Of a stretch of DNA of 64,000 nucleotides, positions 40,369 to 47,536 are shown one piece after another. The stretch comes from an uncultured Flavobacteriaceae bacterium (lineage in GTDB: Bacteria > Bacteroidota > Bacteroidia > Flavobacteriales > Flavobacteriaceae), in contig CAJIYJ010000004.1 of assembly GCA_905181625.1 (NCBI GenBank), positions 1-64,000 on the forward strand, read 5' to 3'. The notes under the pieces were generated by a model. The model made no database searches, had not been told where the DNA came from, and worked only from the letters and a program-made list of their open reading frames with translations. A program made the position numbers and the translations under genes. The first letter of the stretch is position 1, and every line of letters starts with the position of its first letter.

Positions 40369-41172
40369 ATGTCTAAAACAGTTCTAGTTACTGGTGCTTC
40401 ATCTGGAATAGGTAAATCTATTGCACTCTTTCTATCTTCTAAAGGTTTTAATGTTTACGGTACATGTAGAAATCCCAAAAAGTATGATATCATTAAATTC
40501 AAGCTACTAAAATGTGATATTACTAATATAGAACAGATTAAGAGCGCCGTTAGTCATATTGTAAAAAAAGAGGGTAGGTTAGATGTATTAATTAACAATG
40601 CTGGGATAGGTATTACTGGCCCTATGGAAGAAACTTCAGAATCAGATATAAAATCAGCCTTTGAAACGAATTTTTTTGGACCTATAAATATTATCAAGGA
40701 ATGTATTCCTTCAATGAGAAAACATAAAACTGGATTGATTATTAATATTACGTCAATTATGGGATATTTTGCTCTACCATATAGAGGTGTTTATAGCGCT
40801 ACTAAAAGTTCAATGGAAATAATTGGAGAAGCATTTAGTATGGAATTAAATAAGTTTAATATTAAAGTTGTTAATATTGCTCCTGGTGATTTTAAGACTG
40901 ATATAATTTCTAGAAGGATAAATAGTCCAAGTTTTCCAGAATCTTTATATAAAAAAGATTATAAAAAAAGCATCAATTCTGCTAACAATCACGTAAAGAA
41001 TGCTCTTTCTCCTGAAATTATTTCAAAATTAGTTTTCAAAATAATTAAATCTGAAAACCCTAAAATTCACTATAAAGTAGGTACGTTTATTCAAAAATTT
41101 TCAATAGTTTTAAAAAACATTTTACCAGATAGACTGTTTGAAAAAATATTACTTTATTATAATAAAAATTAA
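40369..41172 (+). CDS. Short-chain dehydrogenase/reductase
   Basis: A 267-residue classical SDR: cofactor motif [10 protein letters not shown] (7-16), NNAG (about 76-79), catalytic Ser in NITSIMG and YSATK (Tyr/Lys, about 145-149), then PGDFKTDI. An Arg in the [10 protein letters not shown] region suggests NADP preference. The C-terminus has a hydrophobic/basic tail ([28 protein letters not shown]) as in lipid- or retinol-dehydrogenase-like SDRs. The substrate is unknown. The ATG follows the SRP RNA terminator T-run without a gap, so this gene is either expressed by read-through from the SRP promoter or from a promoter inside the RNA gene. Confidence 0.88.
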
Positions 41173-43271: not shown

Positions 43272-44894
43272 ATGTTAAGTGTTTCAAATCTTTCAGTTCA
43301 ATTTGGTAAAAGAGTTTTGTTTGACGATGTTAATACAGCTTTTTTAAAAGGTAATTGTTATGGAATAATAGGTGCTAATGGAGCAGGGAAATCTACTTTT
43401 TTGAAAATTTTATCTAAATTAATTGAACCAAATTCTGGAAATATTCATTTAGAGCCTGGAAAAAGATTGTCGGTTTTAGAACAAGATCATTTTGCTTTTG
43501 ATTCCAAACAAGTTTTAGAAACCGTTATTATGGGTAATAAAAGTCTTTTCAATCTTAAAAAAGAAATGGATGAAATTTATTCAAAACCAGATTTTTCAGA
43601 TAAGGATAGTGATAGGGTAGGAGTTTTACAGTTAAAATATGAGGAAATGGATGGATGGAATGCTGAAAGTTCAGCTGCAGCATTATTATCAAATTTAGAC
43701 ATAAAGGAAGAATTACATTATAAGACCATGGCAGAACTTGATGGTATTCAAAAAGTTAAGGTTTTACTTGCCCAAGCTTTATTTGGAAGTCCAGATGTAC
43801 TTATTATGGATGAGCCTACAAATGATTTAGATTTCGATACAATTACATGGTTAGAAAACTTTATTGCTAATTATGATAATACAGTAATTATAGTTTCTCA
43901 CGATCGACATTTTTTAGATTCAGTATGCACACATATTTCTGATATAGACTTTGGAAAAATAAATCATTTTTCTGGAAATTATACTTTTTGGTATGAATCC
44001 AGCCAGTTAGCATTAAGACAAAAAACACAACAAAATAGAAAAGCTGAAGAAAAAAAGAAAGAATTAGAAGATTTTATCTCTCGTTTTAGTGCTAATGCTT
44101 CAAAGTCTAAACAAGCTACTTCCAGAAAGAAAATGCTAGATAATTTAAACATAGAGGATATTAAGCCTTCATCTAGGAGGTATCCTGCAATTATATATAA
44201 TTCTGAGCGAGAAGCTGGTGATCAGATATTAAGTCTTGAAAATTTAAGTTTTTCAGACTCATCTAGCGTACTTTTTAAAAACATAAGTTTTAATTTAAAC
44301 AAAGGGGATAAAGTTGTTCTTTATTCGAAAGATACTAGAGCTACAACTGCACTTTACGAGATTTTAAATAATAATTTAAAACCAAGTAGCGGAAGATTTG
44401 ATTGGGGAATTACAACATCTCAATCTTATTTACCACTAGATAATAGCTCATTTTTTAAAGAAAAAACTTCATTAGTTGATTGGTTAAGACAATGGGCCAA
44501 AAATGATGAGGAAAGAGAAGAAGTTTTCATTAGAGGATTTTTAGGTAAAATGATTTTTAGTGGAGAAGAAGCTTTAAAAACTTGTGATGTCTTATCTGGT
44601 GGTGAAAAAGTAAGGTGTATGCTATCTAGAATGATGATGCTTAGATCAAATGTATTGATGTTTGATGAGCCGACAAGTCATTTGGATTTAGAATCAATTA
44701 CAGCTTTAAACAATTCAATTAAGAAATTCAAAGGGAATGTAATAATTACAACCCATGATTATGAATTTGCGCAATCTGTAGGCAATAGGGTTATTGAAAT
44801 CACTCCTAATGGTATAATTGATAGGTTAGCATCCTTTGATTCTTATGTTAAAGATTCTAAAATTCAAGAATTAAGAAATAAGTTGTATTCGTAA
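43272..44894 (+). CDS. ABC-F family ATP-binding protein (YbiT-like)
   Basis: A 540-residue soluble protein with two ABC ATPase domains and an ABC-F linker (about 240-300, FSANASKSKQATSRKKMLD). The first domain has Walker A GANGAGKS (34-41) and Walker B VLIMDEPTNDLD, but its signature is LDGIQKV rather than LSGGQ. The second has signature LSGGEKVR and Walker B VLMFDEPTSHLD, but its Walker A position reads YSKDTRATT. So only one composite ATP site has all parts. ABC-F proteins act on the ribosome (translation factors or antibiotic protection). There are no membrane segments. Length and linker fit the YbiT-type group; specific role unknown. Confidence 0.88.
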   Translation: MLSVSNLSVQFGKRVLFDDVNTAFLKGNCYGIIGANGAGKSTFLKILSKLIEPNSGNIHLEPGKRLSVLEQDHFAFDSKQVLETVIMGNKSLFNLKKEMDEIYSKPDFSDKDSDRVGVLQLKYEEMDGWNAESSAAALLSNLDIKEELHYKTMAELDGIQKVKVLLAQALFGSPDVLIMDEPTNDLDFDTITWLENFIANYDNTVIIVSHDRHFLDSVCTHISDIDFGKINHFSGNYTFWYESSQLALRQKTQQNRKAEEKKKELEDFISRFSANASKSKQATSRKKMLDNLNIEDIKPSSRRYPAIIYNSEREAGDQILSLENLSFSDSSSVLFKNISFNLNKGDKVVLYSKDTRATTALYEILNNNLKPSSGRFDWGITTSQSYLPLDNSSFFKEKTSLVDWLRQWAKNDEEREEVFIRGFLGKMIFSGEEALKTCDVLSGGEKVRCMLSRMMMLRSNVLMFDEPTSHLDLESITALNNSIKKFKGNVIITTHDYEFAQSVGNRVIEITPNGIIDRLASFDSYVKDSKIQELRNKLYS

Positions 44895-45107
44895 TTTAAT
44901 TAGTAAGTCATTAGTTTTTCTTACTTCATCTTTAAATACATAAAGACATATTGAATTTAGGTTAGCTGAACCAAATCCTGCTAGTCTTGCTGATTCCATT
45001 TCATTCTTAATAATAGGGGATATATTGATATTTTTAAGTTCAACAACCAACCTATTAGATTCAATAAAAGAACCTTGAAAAATTTTTATATAATTATCAC
45101 TAGCCAT
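44871..45107 (-). CDS. DUF2007 domain putative signal-transducing protein
   Basis: A 78-residue protein: NYIKIFQGSFIESNRLVVELKNINISPIIKNEMESARLAGFGSANLNSICLYVFKDEVRKTNDLLI in reduced form is the DUF2007 pattern (short ferredoxin-like fold, GII-like domain found in PII-related small proteins). No catalytic residues. It precedes nothing obvious functionally; pheT lies 14 bases upstream in the same direction, so they may be cotranscribed. Its 3' end overlaps the ABC-F gene by 24 bases, the longest convergent overlap in the window. Confidence 0.75.
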   Translation of the reverse strand: MASDNYIKIFQGSFIESNRLVVELKNINISPIIKNEMESARLAGFGSANLNSICLYVFKDEVRKTNDLLIKLRIQLIS

Positions 45108-45121
45108 TTTCTCTAGATTTC

Positions 45122-47536
45122 CTAAGATCGAAGTGTCGCAATAAATTTATTTTCAATTATGTTTTGAATTTTATTCATTGTAGATTGAATTTCTTTTTCA
45201 GTTAGTGTTTTTTCATTGTCCATTAAACGAAAACTTAAAGTATATGATTTTTTTCCTTCAGGAAGTTTTTTATCAATGTAAACGTCAGACAAACTCATGC
45301 TTATAAGTTTTTTGATTTTAGAGTTTTGAAATAATAAGATTTCAATCTCGCTATACTGTATGTCGTTATTAAATAAAAAATTCAACTCCCTATTAACCGA
45401 CGGAAATTTTGAAATATTTATGTATTTATGTAATTCACTTGTTAGATTGTTGAGTAATAAATCTATATCAATTGAAGCATAATATACATCTTGATTAATT
45501 CCTATTATTGACTTATACTCTTTCGTAATCTCTCCTAAAATAGCTATTCTTTTATCATTTTTAAACATTCCTAATACATTTTCAAGACCTTCAAAATTCA
45601 TTGTTTTTTCACTAACATTAATCGAAAGTCTTTTGAATATATTTAAAACAATATTTTTTAAAGTGTAAAACTCAGCTTTTACAACATCACTATTCCAGGT
45701 TTTTTCGATAATATTTCCTGAAAATAAAATTCCTAATCTTCTTGATTCTTTGTTGTTTTCTAAAGTATTTTCGTAAATTTTACCAAATTCATAAAAATTT
45801 GTATTACTGTTTTTTCTATTTAAATTATATTTTAATGTTTTTAAAGAAGATTCTAATAAAGAAGTTCTTAATTGTGAAACATCTGAGCTAATAGAGTTTA
45901 TTATTTTGACGCTTTTTCTTTTTTCAATATCTAATTCATTATTAGTTAAAGAATTATTCATTATTTCATTGAAGCCTAATGAGTTCAAATAGCTTGAGAT
46001 TATACTTTCTGTTTTAAAATGTTTGTTTTGATCTATTGTATTTAAAGAAATAGATAATTTATTTGATAAATTAATTTCATTGAATCCATAAATTCTTAAA
46101 ATTTCTTCTACAACATCACATTCCCTAGTTACATCATATCTATAAGATGGTACAGTAATTCCTACGCCAGTTTCAGTTATATTATTAATTTTAAAATCTA
46201 AAGATGTTAGAATAGACTTAATTTCTTCTGTAGGTATTTCTTGACCAATTAGCTTATTAGTTTTTTCAAAATTAAGTAGTATTGATTTACTTTCAGTTTT
46301 TTTAGGATATTCATCAATTAAATCACTACAAATTTTTCCGCCACAAAACTCACATATTAATATTGCTGCCCGTTTTAAAGCATACTCGACTAATTCGATA
46401 TTTACTCCCCTCTCAAACCTAAAAGAAGCATCACTGTTTATTGAGTGAGCTTTTGCAGTTTTTCTAATACTTACCGGGTTAAAGTATGCACTTTCTAAAA
46501 ATATAGATTTTGTTTCGTTAGAAACACCATGATAATCCCCCCCGTAAACTCCTGCGATGCACATTGGTTTGTTTTTATCGCAAACCATTAAATCTGTTTC
46601 GTTTAATTTTCTTTCTAATCCATCTAATGTTGTAAAAACCGTATCTTCTTTTAAGGTTTTAACTTCAATAGTATTAGATTTTATTTTTTCAAGATCATAT
46701 GCATGTAATGGTTGACCTACTTCATGTAAAATATAATTTGTAATGTCTACCACATTATTAACAGGGGATAGGCCAATAGATTTTAATTTATTTTGCAGCC
46801 ATTTTGGAGAACTTTCGACTTTAATATTTTCTATGCATACTCCTGAAAACCTTTGACATAAACTCTGATTTGAAATTTTAATGTTTATTTTTTTTGTTCT
46901 GGAATTGATATGAAAATTTGAAACTGATGGTGTTAGTAATTCAGTTTTTAGTCCTTTATGCATTAAAGCAGCTCTTAAATCTCTAGCTACACCATGATGA
47001 CTCATTGCATCTGATCTGTTTGGAGTCAAACCAATATTAAAAATTGAATCTGAATAATTATCAAATATTTCAAAAACTTTGGTACCTGGTTTATGTTTCT
47101 TATCTAAAACTATAATTCCATCGTGCGCTTTTCCAATACCTATTTCATCTTCAGCGCAAATCATACCTTGACTTAACTCTCCTCTAATTTTACTCTTATT
47201 AATTTTAAACTCATTTCCCTTAAGTGGATATAAAGTTGTCCCTACAGTAGCTATTACAACAATTAAACCCTCTTTTACATTGGGGGCTCCACATACAATT
47301 TGAAGTAAAGATTCTTCACCAATATTTACAGTAGTTAGCTTTAATCTATCAGCGTTTGGATGTTTAATGCACGAAACTACTTCTCCTACTAACAAACCTT
47401 TAAATCCACCTTTAATCTCTTGAAAATCATCAATCCCTTCAACCTCTAAACCTATATCAGTTAATATATTAGAAACTTCTTCAATATCAATATCAATATT
47501 TAAAAACTCTTTGAGCCAATTAAAGGATATGTTCAT
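45122..47536 (-). CDS. pheT: Phenylalanyl-tRNA synthetase beta subunit
   Basis: An 804-residue subunit of normal length: N-terminal MNISFNWLKEFLNIDIDIEEVSNILTDIGLEVEG, the OB-fold tRNA-binding EMAP-like domain (about 40-150, NADRLKLTTVNIG, IVCGAPNV), B3/4 editing domain (VDITNYILHEVGQPLHAYDLEKI), B5 domain (about 400-475), the core and a C-terminal FDX-ACB anticodon-binding domain (ISKFPSVNRELNFLF). It charges tRNA-Phe together with PheS, whose gene is not in the window, so pheS and pheT are separated here. Upstream recG ends before a short spacer of about 63 bases. Confidence 0.97.
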   Translation of the reverse strand: MNISFNWLKEFLNIDIDIEEVSNILTDIGLEVEGIDDFQEIKGGFKGLLVGEVVSCIKHPNADRLKLTTVNIGEESLLQIVCGAPNVKEGLIVVIATVGTTLYPLKGNEFKINKSKIRGELSQGMICAEDEIGIGKAHDGIIVLDKKHKPGTKVFEIFDNYSDSIFNIGLTPNRSDAMSHHGVARDLRAALMHKGLKTELLTPSVSNFHINSRTKKINIKISNQSLCQRFSGVCIENIKVESSPKWLQNKLKSIGLSPVNNVVDITNYILHEVGQPLHAYDLEKIKSNTIEVKTLKEDTVFTTLDGLERKLNETDLMVCDKNKPMCIAGVYGGDYHGVSNETKSIFLESAYFNPVSIRKTAKAHSINSDASFRFERGVNIELVEYALKRAAILICEFCGGKICSDLIDEYPKKTESKSILLNFEKTNKLIGQEIPTEEIKSILTSLDFKINNITETGVGITVPSYRYDVTRECDVVEEILRIYGFNEINLSNKLSISLNTIDQNKHFKTESIISSYLNSLGFNEIMNNSLTNNELDIEKRKSVKIINSISSDVSQLRTSLLESSLKTLKYNLNRKNSNTNFYEFGKIYENTLENNKESRRLGILFSGNIIEKTWNSDVVKAEFYTLKNIVLNIFKRLSINVSEKTMNFEGLENVLGMFKNDKRIAILGEITKEYKSIIGINQDVYYASIDIDLLLNNLTSELHKYINISKFPSVNRELNFLFNNDIQYSEIEILLFQNSKIKKLISMSLSDVYIDKKLPEGKKSYTLSFRLMDNEKTLTEKEIQSTMNKIQNIIENKFIATLRS

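Follow-up and report, generated by a model that had tools for sequence, protein, structure and literature searches.

A YkpA-type ABC-F protein from an uncultured Flavobacteriaceae bacterium, with one consensus and one degenerate composite ATP site

What each of the two ATP sites of an ABC-F protein does is, to our knowledge, an open question. These sites have usually been probed by mutating both glutamates together (EQ2; PMC6723617); this and the other papers given here by PMC number are represented by excerpts, and the statements taken from them have that scope. EttA, of E. coli and M. tuberculosis, shares the ABC-F architecture of the protein described below and is likewise an E-site factor, but both of its sites are intact: in MtbEttA both bind nucleotide and alternate, and Gln391 of the NBD2 Q-loop engages at site II (PMC8782954). 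ABCE1, a soluble ribosome ABC ATPase, resembles our protein in having functionally unequal sites; both bind ATP, and site II is the control site (PMC6124641). The degenerate-site exporters (CFTR, TAP, TM287/288, ABCG5/G8) also pair one consensus with one degenerate composite site, but they are membrane transporters whose degenerate site is reported as conserved and ATP-loaded, the degeneracy arising mostly through signature, Glu and His changes and, in ABCG5/G8, through a Walker A Lys to Arg change (PMC7756269). YbiT itself has been listed in 15 phyla and 1874 species by Murina and co-workers (PMC6723617). B. subtilis lacking ykpA shows mild stalling on reporters with polylysine or polyglutamate (PMC11381351), which argues for a ribosomal role of the YkpA branch.

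The window analysed here is a stretch of 64,000 nucleotides (contig CAJIYJ010000004.1), and the ABC-F gene within it has the following features.

43272..44894, plus strand: open frame of a YbiT/YkpA-type ABC-F protein of 540 residues (NCBIfam NF011646, 593.7 bits; best solved relative 9njf)
43371..43394, plus strand: Walker A of NBD1, GANGAGKS (34-41), site I, intact (sequence and alignment)
43482..43484, plus strand: Q-loop Gln71 of NBD1, site I, intact (alignment)
43737..43751, plus strand: signature position of NBD1, LDGIQ (156-160), site II, degenerate (alignment)
43800..43814, plus strand: Walker B of NBD1 with Asp180 and catalytic Glu181, site I, intact (alignment)
43899..43901, plus strand: H-loop His210 of NBD1, site I, intact (alignment)
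43980..44186, plus strand: inter-domain linker (about 237-305), well conserved with E. coli YbiT (Pfam ABC_tran_Xtn, alignment)
44256..44258, plus strand: A-loop position of NBD2, Asp329 (aromatic in intact relatives), site II, probably lost (gappy alignment)
44325..44348, plus strand: P-loop position of NBD2, SKDTRATT (352-359), site II, lost; lysine-equivalent Thr358 (MAFFT alignment)
44436..44438, plus strand: Q-loop position of NBD2, Leu389, site II, lost (alignment)
44592..44606, plus strand: signature of NBD2, LSGGE (441-445), site I, intact (alignment, pattern search)
44664..44669, plus strand: Walker B Asp465 and Glu466 of NBD2, site II, retained (alignment)
44679..44687, plus strand: D-loop HLD (470-472) of NBD2 (invariant in 216/216 YkpA-type rows)
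44754..44756, plus strand: H-loop His495 of NBD2, site II, retained (alignment)

The protein has the architecture of an ABC-F protein, with two NBDs on one chain, an ABC_tran_Xtn/PtIM linker and no membrane domain, as judged by Pfam, the AlphaFold model and its structural matches. Pfam finds two ABC_tran stretches and ABC_tran_Xtn (71.6 bits, residues 224-303), and none of the ten Pfam families listed is a membrane family, so that the transmembrane domains of a degenerate-site ABC exporter are lacking. The linker at about 237-305 is a probable P-site tRNA interaction motif (PtIM), an element whose role is established for ABC-F proteins and which would act similarly here. By far the best NCBIfam model is NF011646 (‘ABC-F family ATPase’, PRK15064), although the 593.7 bits lie below its curated cut-off of 762; that cut-off was reached in one of 14 control genomes, probably that of E. 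coli, and may therefore mark the E. coli-like form only. The AlphaFold model (mean pLDDT 85.9) matches ribosome-bound E. coli YbiT (VIA Z 31.5 to 9nlf and 30.8 to 9njf), with human ABCF1 close to these (VIA Z 31.9). By its likeness to ribosome-bound E. coli YbiT, which is also the closest solved relative by sequence (9njf), the window protein would bind the ribosomal E site.

Placement within the YbiT/YkpA subfamily follows from a branch with support of 100 that sets 91 YbiT/YkpA rows against 14 other ABC-F rows. The protein is of YkpA type in that the glycine before the NBD2 lysine, the NBD2 Q-loop Gln and the A-loop aromatic are gone, and it groups with Bacillota YkpA in our trees. A relative from Flavobacterium beibuense is 72% identical to it, and named relatives of this sort are the basis on which rows are labelled Bacteroidota or Flavobacteriaceae here. 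The same genome encodes at least two more ABC-F-like proteins, of which one (L002) has both P-loops in strict consensus and another (L003) has AKNGSGKT in NBD1 and GKNGTGKS in NBD2.

The gene lies between a divergent upstream gene and convergent downstream genes, a neighbourhood that gives no clue to function. A 78-residue ORF on the opposite strand (44871-45107, minus) overlaps its 3′ end by 24 bases and has no Pfam match; the next gene, at 45122-47536, is one that we take to be pheT-like. The sole RNA family matched between 38000 and 50000 is the Bacteroidales small SRP RNA (RF04183; 40259-40365, plus strand; 104.1 bits against a gathering score of 55.2), which stands directly before a short-chain dehydrogenase gene at 40369.

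A sequence-only reading of this DNA had proposed that the first domain keeps its Walker A but has lost its signature, that the second keeps its signature but has lost its Walker A, and that both losses fall on one composite site. The alignment agrees on each count: GANGAGKS and LSGGE are intact, LDGIQ is degenerate, and MAFFT lines up residues S352-K-D-T-R-A-T-T359 with G352-x-x-G-x-G-K-[ST]359 of intact relatives. That reading's placement of the loop is corrected in one detail, the lysine-equivalent being Thr358 and the preceding glycine Ala357, and two further losses are added to it, Q-loop Gln to Leu389 and, less surely since the alignment is gappy there, the adenine-stacking A-loop aromatic to Asp329. 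Since each composite site combines one domain's Walker A, Q-loop, Walker B and H-loop with the other domain's signature, all of these losses fall on site II. When the residues are scored, site I has 12/12 canonical and site II 5/12 (Thr359, Asp465, Glu466, His495 and the middle signature glycine, Gly158), so that the usual, though not strictly defining, ABC-F pair of consensus sites is lacking. A pattern search of the whole protein, made as a check on a misplaced canonical motif, found one P-loop and one SGG signature, and thus no canonical copy was overlooked. In the AlphaFold model the helix after the NBD2 P-loop position starts at 355, against 357 in an intact Shewanella YbiT; this fits the loss of the loop, but a shift of two residues is too small to carry weight. 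Sixteen more genomes of the genus carry an identical NBD2 loop, or one with one or two residue differences, which excludes an assembly error.

We then compared site I and site II residues in an alignment of 266 rows: 183 Bacteroidota YkpA-type, 33 YkpA-type from other phyla, 12 Proteobacterial YbiT, 8 deep YbiT and 30 other ABC-F. The genus, family, order and phylum searches behind it used the window protein as query with an E-value limit of 1e-90, so that the matches favour its own clade, and the rows (returned loci and 100 fetched regions) are part of all matches. The 30 other ABC-F rows comprise E. coli Uup, YheS and EttA, L002 and 26 loci found with patterns in which H-loop and Walker B are intact, a choice that favours intact proteins. 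L294, which is among these 30 rows, departs from consensus at the NBD2 Q-loop and at one signature glycine. Class labels were set from titles and motifs before the trees were made, and both trees keep the YkpA rows together. Some phyla are thinly represented (Fusobacteriota by two rows, Spirochaetota by three, Mycoplasmatota by one). We dropped L001 (the window's copy), L003 and L004 (another ABC-F of the same genome), L005-L008 (no matching ORF), L180 (broken frame), L182 (replaced by an annotated ybiT) and L240, L265, L269 and L292 (short or broken frames); two rows that were kept, L159 (N-terminus missing) and L126 (ambiguous residues), are the source of the few unreadable site I cells.

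In every class of this alignment the site I residues are canonical in all readable cells. Site II of the YkpA-type rows is another matter. The glycine before the lysine is lost in 215/216 (kept in 1/183 Bacteroidota and 0/33 others) and the lysine itself in 195/216 (kept in 4/183 and 17/33); the second P-loop glycine is kept in 5/183 and 1/33, and in no YkpA-type row do the second glycine, the third glycine and the lysine occur together. The NBD2 Q-loop Gln remains in three rows of 216 (2/183 and 1/33) and the A-loop aromatic in four of 212 readable (4/181 and 0/31), the latter being present in 49 of the 50 remaining rows (12/12 Proteobacterial YbiT, 8/8 deep YbiT, 29/30 other ABC-F). Bacillota YkpA belongs to the same clade as the window protein, with lysine and Q-loop lost in B. 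velezensis (NBD2 P-loop GRNELAVT), but is less eroded, the first P-loop glycine being kept in 25/33 non-Bacteroidota rows against 9/183 Bacteroidota. Of the remaining NBD2 residues, Walker B Asp is kept in 171/183 Bacteroidota and 33/33 others (lost in 12/216), catalytic Glu in 160/183 and 17/33 (lost in 39/216), and H-loop His in 160/182 and 26/33. Exactly one P-loop pattern occurs in 213/216 YkpA-type rows; in L247 and L249 a second match lies at residue 370, outside the P-loop, and the third exception is the N-terminally truncated L159. L247 and L249, both Clostridia MAGs, and five more also have Asn for Asp after the NBD1 H-loop His (SHNRHF/SHNRYF), the His being kept.

The asymmetry had been expected in other Bacteroidota YbiT-like proteins; it is common among the 183 aligned rows and reaches four more phyla besides. 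Both P-loops are kept in 20/20 Proteobacterial and deep YbiT and in 30/30 other ABC-F rows, in keeping with the earlier statement that most ABC-F proteins have two intact sites. The D-loop of an ABC dimer works across the interface, on the opposite site, and the SGG signature and HLD D-loop of NBD2 are invariant in 216/216 YkpA-type rows; this invariance of what NBD2 contributes to site I suggests that NBD2 is maintained as the partner of that site. In eight Clostridia rows (L221, L223, L224, L232, L235, L255, L211 and L216) the NBD2 catalytic Glu is naturally Gln, in the degenerate site only, which is the same change as that of the laboratory EQ trap.

E. coli YbiT is of the same subfamily and fold as the window protein, has the same conserved linker and is 41.5% identical to it, and its NBD1 signature is altered too (APG for SGG). 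Among Proteobacterial YbiT rows that signature is APG (SPG in one row) in 12/12, but every scored NBD2 residue, those of P-loop, Q-loop and A-loop and the catalytic Glu and His among them, is canonical in all twelve. A second, deep YbiT-like group from other families of the phylum (L160-L164) has an intact NBD2 P-loop and LPTDL or similar as its NBD1 signature. Living sequences can be ranked in a series of NBD2 P-loop erosion, which is not an ancestral order: GTNGVGKS in E. coli, GPNGLAKT in Paenibacillus, GVNEIAKT in Cytobacillus, GRNELAVT in B. velezensis and SKDTRATT in the window protein.

How the erosion came about was followed in two trees, both of them quick searches with SH-aLRT support only: one of 105 rows with the scored columns removed, and one built solely from NBD1 and linker, minus the signature region as well. 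In the first, 73 YkpA-type rows stand on one branch (SH-aLRT 99), and the second recovers the clade (SH-aLRT 99); the deep YbiT rows do not form one group in either. Counted as minimum changes, the glycine before the lysine needs a single loss, the lysine changed 10 times, the catalytic Glu 12 and the His 11, and seven site I elements not at all; under irreversible loss, the glycine before the lysine was lost once, the lysine and the catalytic Glu 12 times each and the H-loop His 11 times, with no loss at six site I elements. Forty Bacteroidota rows form a clade that shares the loss of the lysine, and of three Bacteroidota rows outside it L150 and L157 have the lysine and L159 does not. Read most simply, these sequences suggest one founding loss at the base of the YkpA-type clade, with site II then eroding independently in many lineages. 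A deep YbiT row on a long branch (L270) still has SGG in NBD1, which suggests that the signature started to be lost early in the YbiT line; we infer an order of loss from the signature, through the nucleotide-holding loops, to the catalytic residues.

Matches at 1e-90 were found in 17/22 genus, 114/120 family, 102/196 order and 86/296 phylum genomes, which makes the gene near-universal in the family and patchy in the phylum; among family genomes with a completeness of 90% or more and a contamination of 5% or less it is present in 99/100. The genomes listed for four families of the order (f8, f11, f14 and f16, the last including genomes of 0.3-0.6 Mb) have no match at that limit, besides 74 more genomes of the order that likewise lack one and, judging by these families, cells may be able to do without the gene.

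Across 17 sequences of the genus, pN/pS comes to 0.119 for the whole gene, which is thus under purifying selection and maintained. The linker (231-318) has the lowest value of the three large regions, 0.054 against 0.115 for NBD1 and 0.151 for NBD2; by loop, the NBD1 P-loop region (30-47) has 0.034 and that of NBD2 (348-365) has 0.110. The sequence-only reading regarded the asymmetry as the pattern that selection would give for a switch on the ribosome, a role that relatives make conceivable for this protein. Selection, so worded, is the part of that reading that finds no support: outside the window's family, site II holds some of the most variable positions of the Bacteroidota proteins (entropy quantiles of 0.89 for the lysine position and 0.92 for the Q-loop), and most of its elements have been lost repeatedly. 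High entropy and repeated loss point to a constraint that is relaxed on site II and strict on site I, and such relaxation would be a better account of the erosion than selection favouring any one dead loop. Within the window's family, too, selection for a given dead P-loop finds no support: mean entropy is 0.74 over the loop at 352-359 against 0.63 over the gene, so that the loop is not conserved above the average, and 0.66 of eight-residue stretches are conserved at least as well. The loop is not completely free there, however, since its pN/pS is close to that of the gene in the genus and its conservation in the family is average. Also in the family, and without clear reason, Glu466 is kept in 40/40 rows and His495 in 38/40, while the Lys and Gln positions vary.

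We consider it fairly probable, going by these sequences, that the window protein serves the cell as a YkpA-type ABC-F translation factor of the housekeeping kind and uses one ATP, and this widespread bacterial protein type probably helps stalled ribosomes. In such a cycle the protein would sit in the ribosomal E site, with its linker directed toward the P-site tRNA and the peptidyl-transferase centre; ATP would be bound and hydrolysed in site I only, the two NBDs closing on this single ATP, and one hydrolysis event would free the protein from the E site. Site II would probably be empty and serve as a permanent hinge or contact face. An entirely idle site II is counted against by the retention of Asp465, Glu466 and His495, with the family frequencies given above; the average conservation of 352-359 in the family, and a pN/pS at 348-365 (0.110) near that of the gene (0.119), suggest that something still constrains the loop; and the 21/216 rows that keep the lysine, 17 of them non-Bacteroidota, suggest that some members of the clade may have a less dead site II.

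Alternatively, site II could bind ATP without hydrolysing it, as a permanent glue of the kind proposed for degenerate exporter sites, so that two ATP would be bound and one hydrolysed. Some ABC proteins do bind ATP at a degenerate site despite a damaged Walker A. Exporters hold a non-hydrolysed ATP in theirs (PMC7756269), and Asp465, Glu466 and His495 are kept in our protein, with the site II Glu and His largely conserved across its family. However, the P-loop, A-loop and Q-loop, whose residues hold the nucleotide, are gone in nearly all YkpA-type rows, and site II varies widely between families whereas degenerate exporter sites are described as undeviating among orthologues (PMC7756269). The human degenerate sites, moreover, differ mainly in signature, Walker B Glu and H-loop, a Walker A change being named for ABCG5/G8 (PMC7756269). 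We therefore regard a glued ATP as unlikely, while giving it some weight.

The uneven decay of the site, with Glu466 and His495 nearly fixed in the family beside variable Lys and Gln positions, could also mean that the pocket has been reused for a partner other than ATP (another ligand, or an rRNA or protein contact), for which Glu and His would be kept. This is improbable: no conserved replacement motif was seen across phyla, and the Glu and His have themselves been lost about 12 and 11 times. That the whole ATPase is dispensable and the gene decaying, as the degenerate site II and the many order and phylum genomes with no match at the strict threshold might suggest, is rejected with little doubt by its pN/pS of 0.119, by a site I that is invariant in 216 rows and by its presence in nearly all good-quality family genomes (99/100). 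A motif misplaced by the alignment, or an assembly error, has a negligible chance: nothing was found in its favour, and it is refuted by the single P-loop pattern that the window protein and 213/216 rows each have and by the same loop in other genus genomes.

The protein family is already known; its degenerate-site form is new as far as the literature covered shows. In the full-text literature, a coverage that leaves most subscription journals and bioRxiv preprints outside, we found no description of a degenerate site in YbiT/YkpA, nor is one described in the excerpts of PMC6723617, PMC11381351, PMC12096078, PMC7756269, PMC8782954 and PMC6124641. That literature yielded no publication on the YbiT ribosome entries of 2025 (9njf and others); such a publication may treat the E. 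coli signature.

Whether the one-ATP reading extends from the window protein to the whole YkpA-type clade, which spans at least five phyla, is in our judgement evenly balanced. If it does, these proteins would be single-ATP machines with a nucleotide-free site II, two ATP per cycle would not be required of an ABC-F protein, and the EQ2 trap would act in them via one residue only. They would then do without both the alternation of EttA, whose Gln391 has no equivalent in the window protein, and the arrangement of ABCE1, the equivalent of whose control site is lost in YkpA-type proteins. Where the degenerate site of exporters is reported as conserved (PMC7756269, in excerpt) and the equivalent site of ABCE1 as a control site (PMC6124641, likewise), site II of the YkpA-type proteins is eroded. 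A clade in which one site is preserved and the other eroded separates the roles of the two sites naturally, and is a natural experiment on the need of such machines for two ATP sites.
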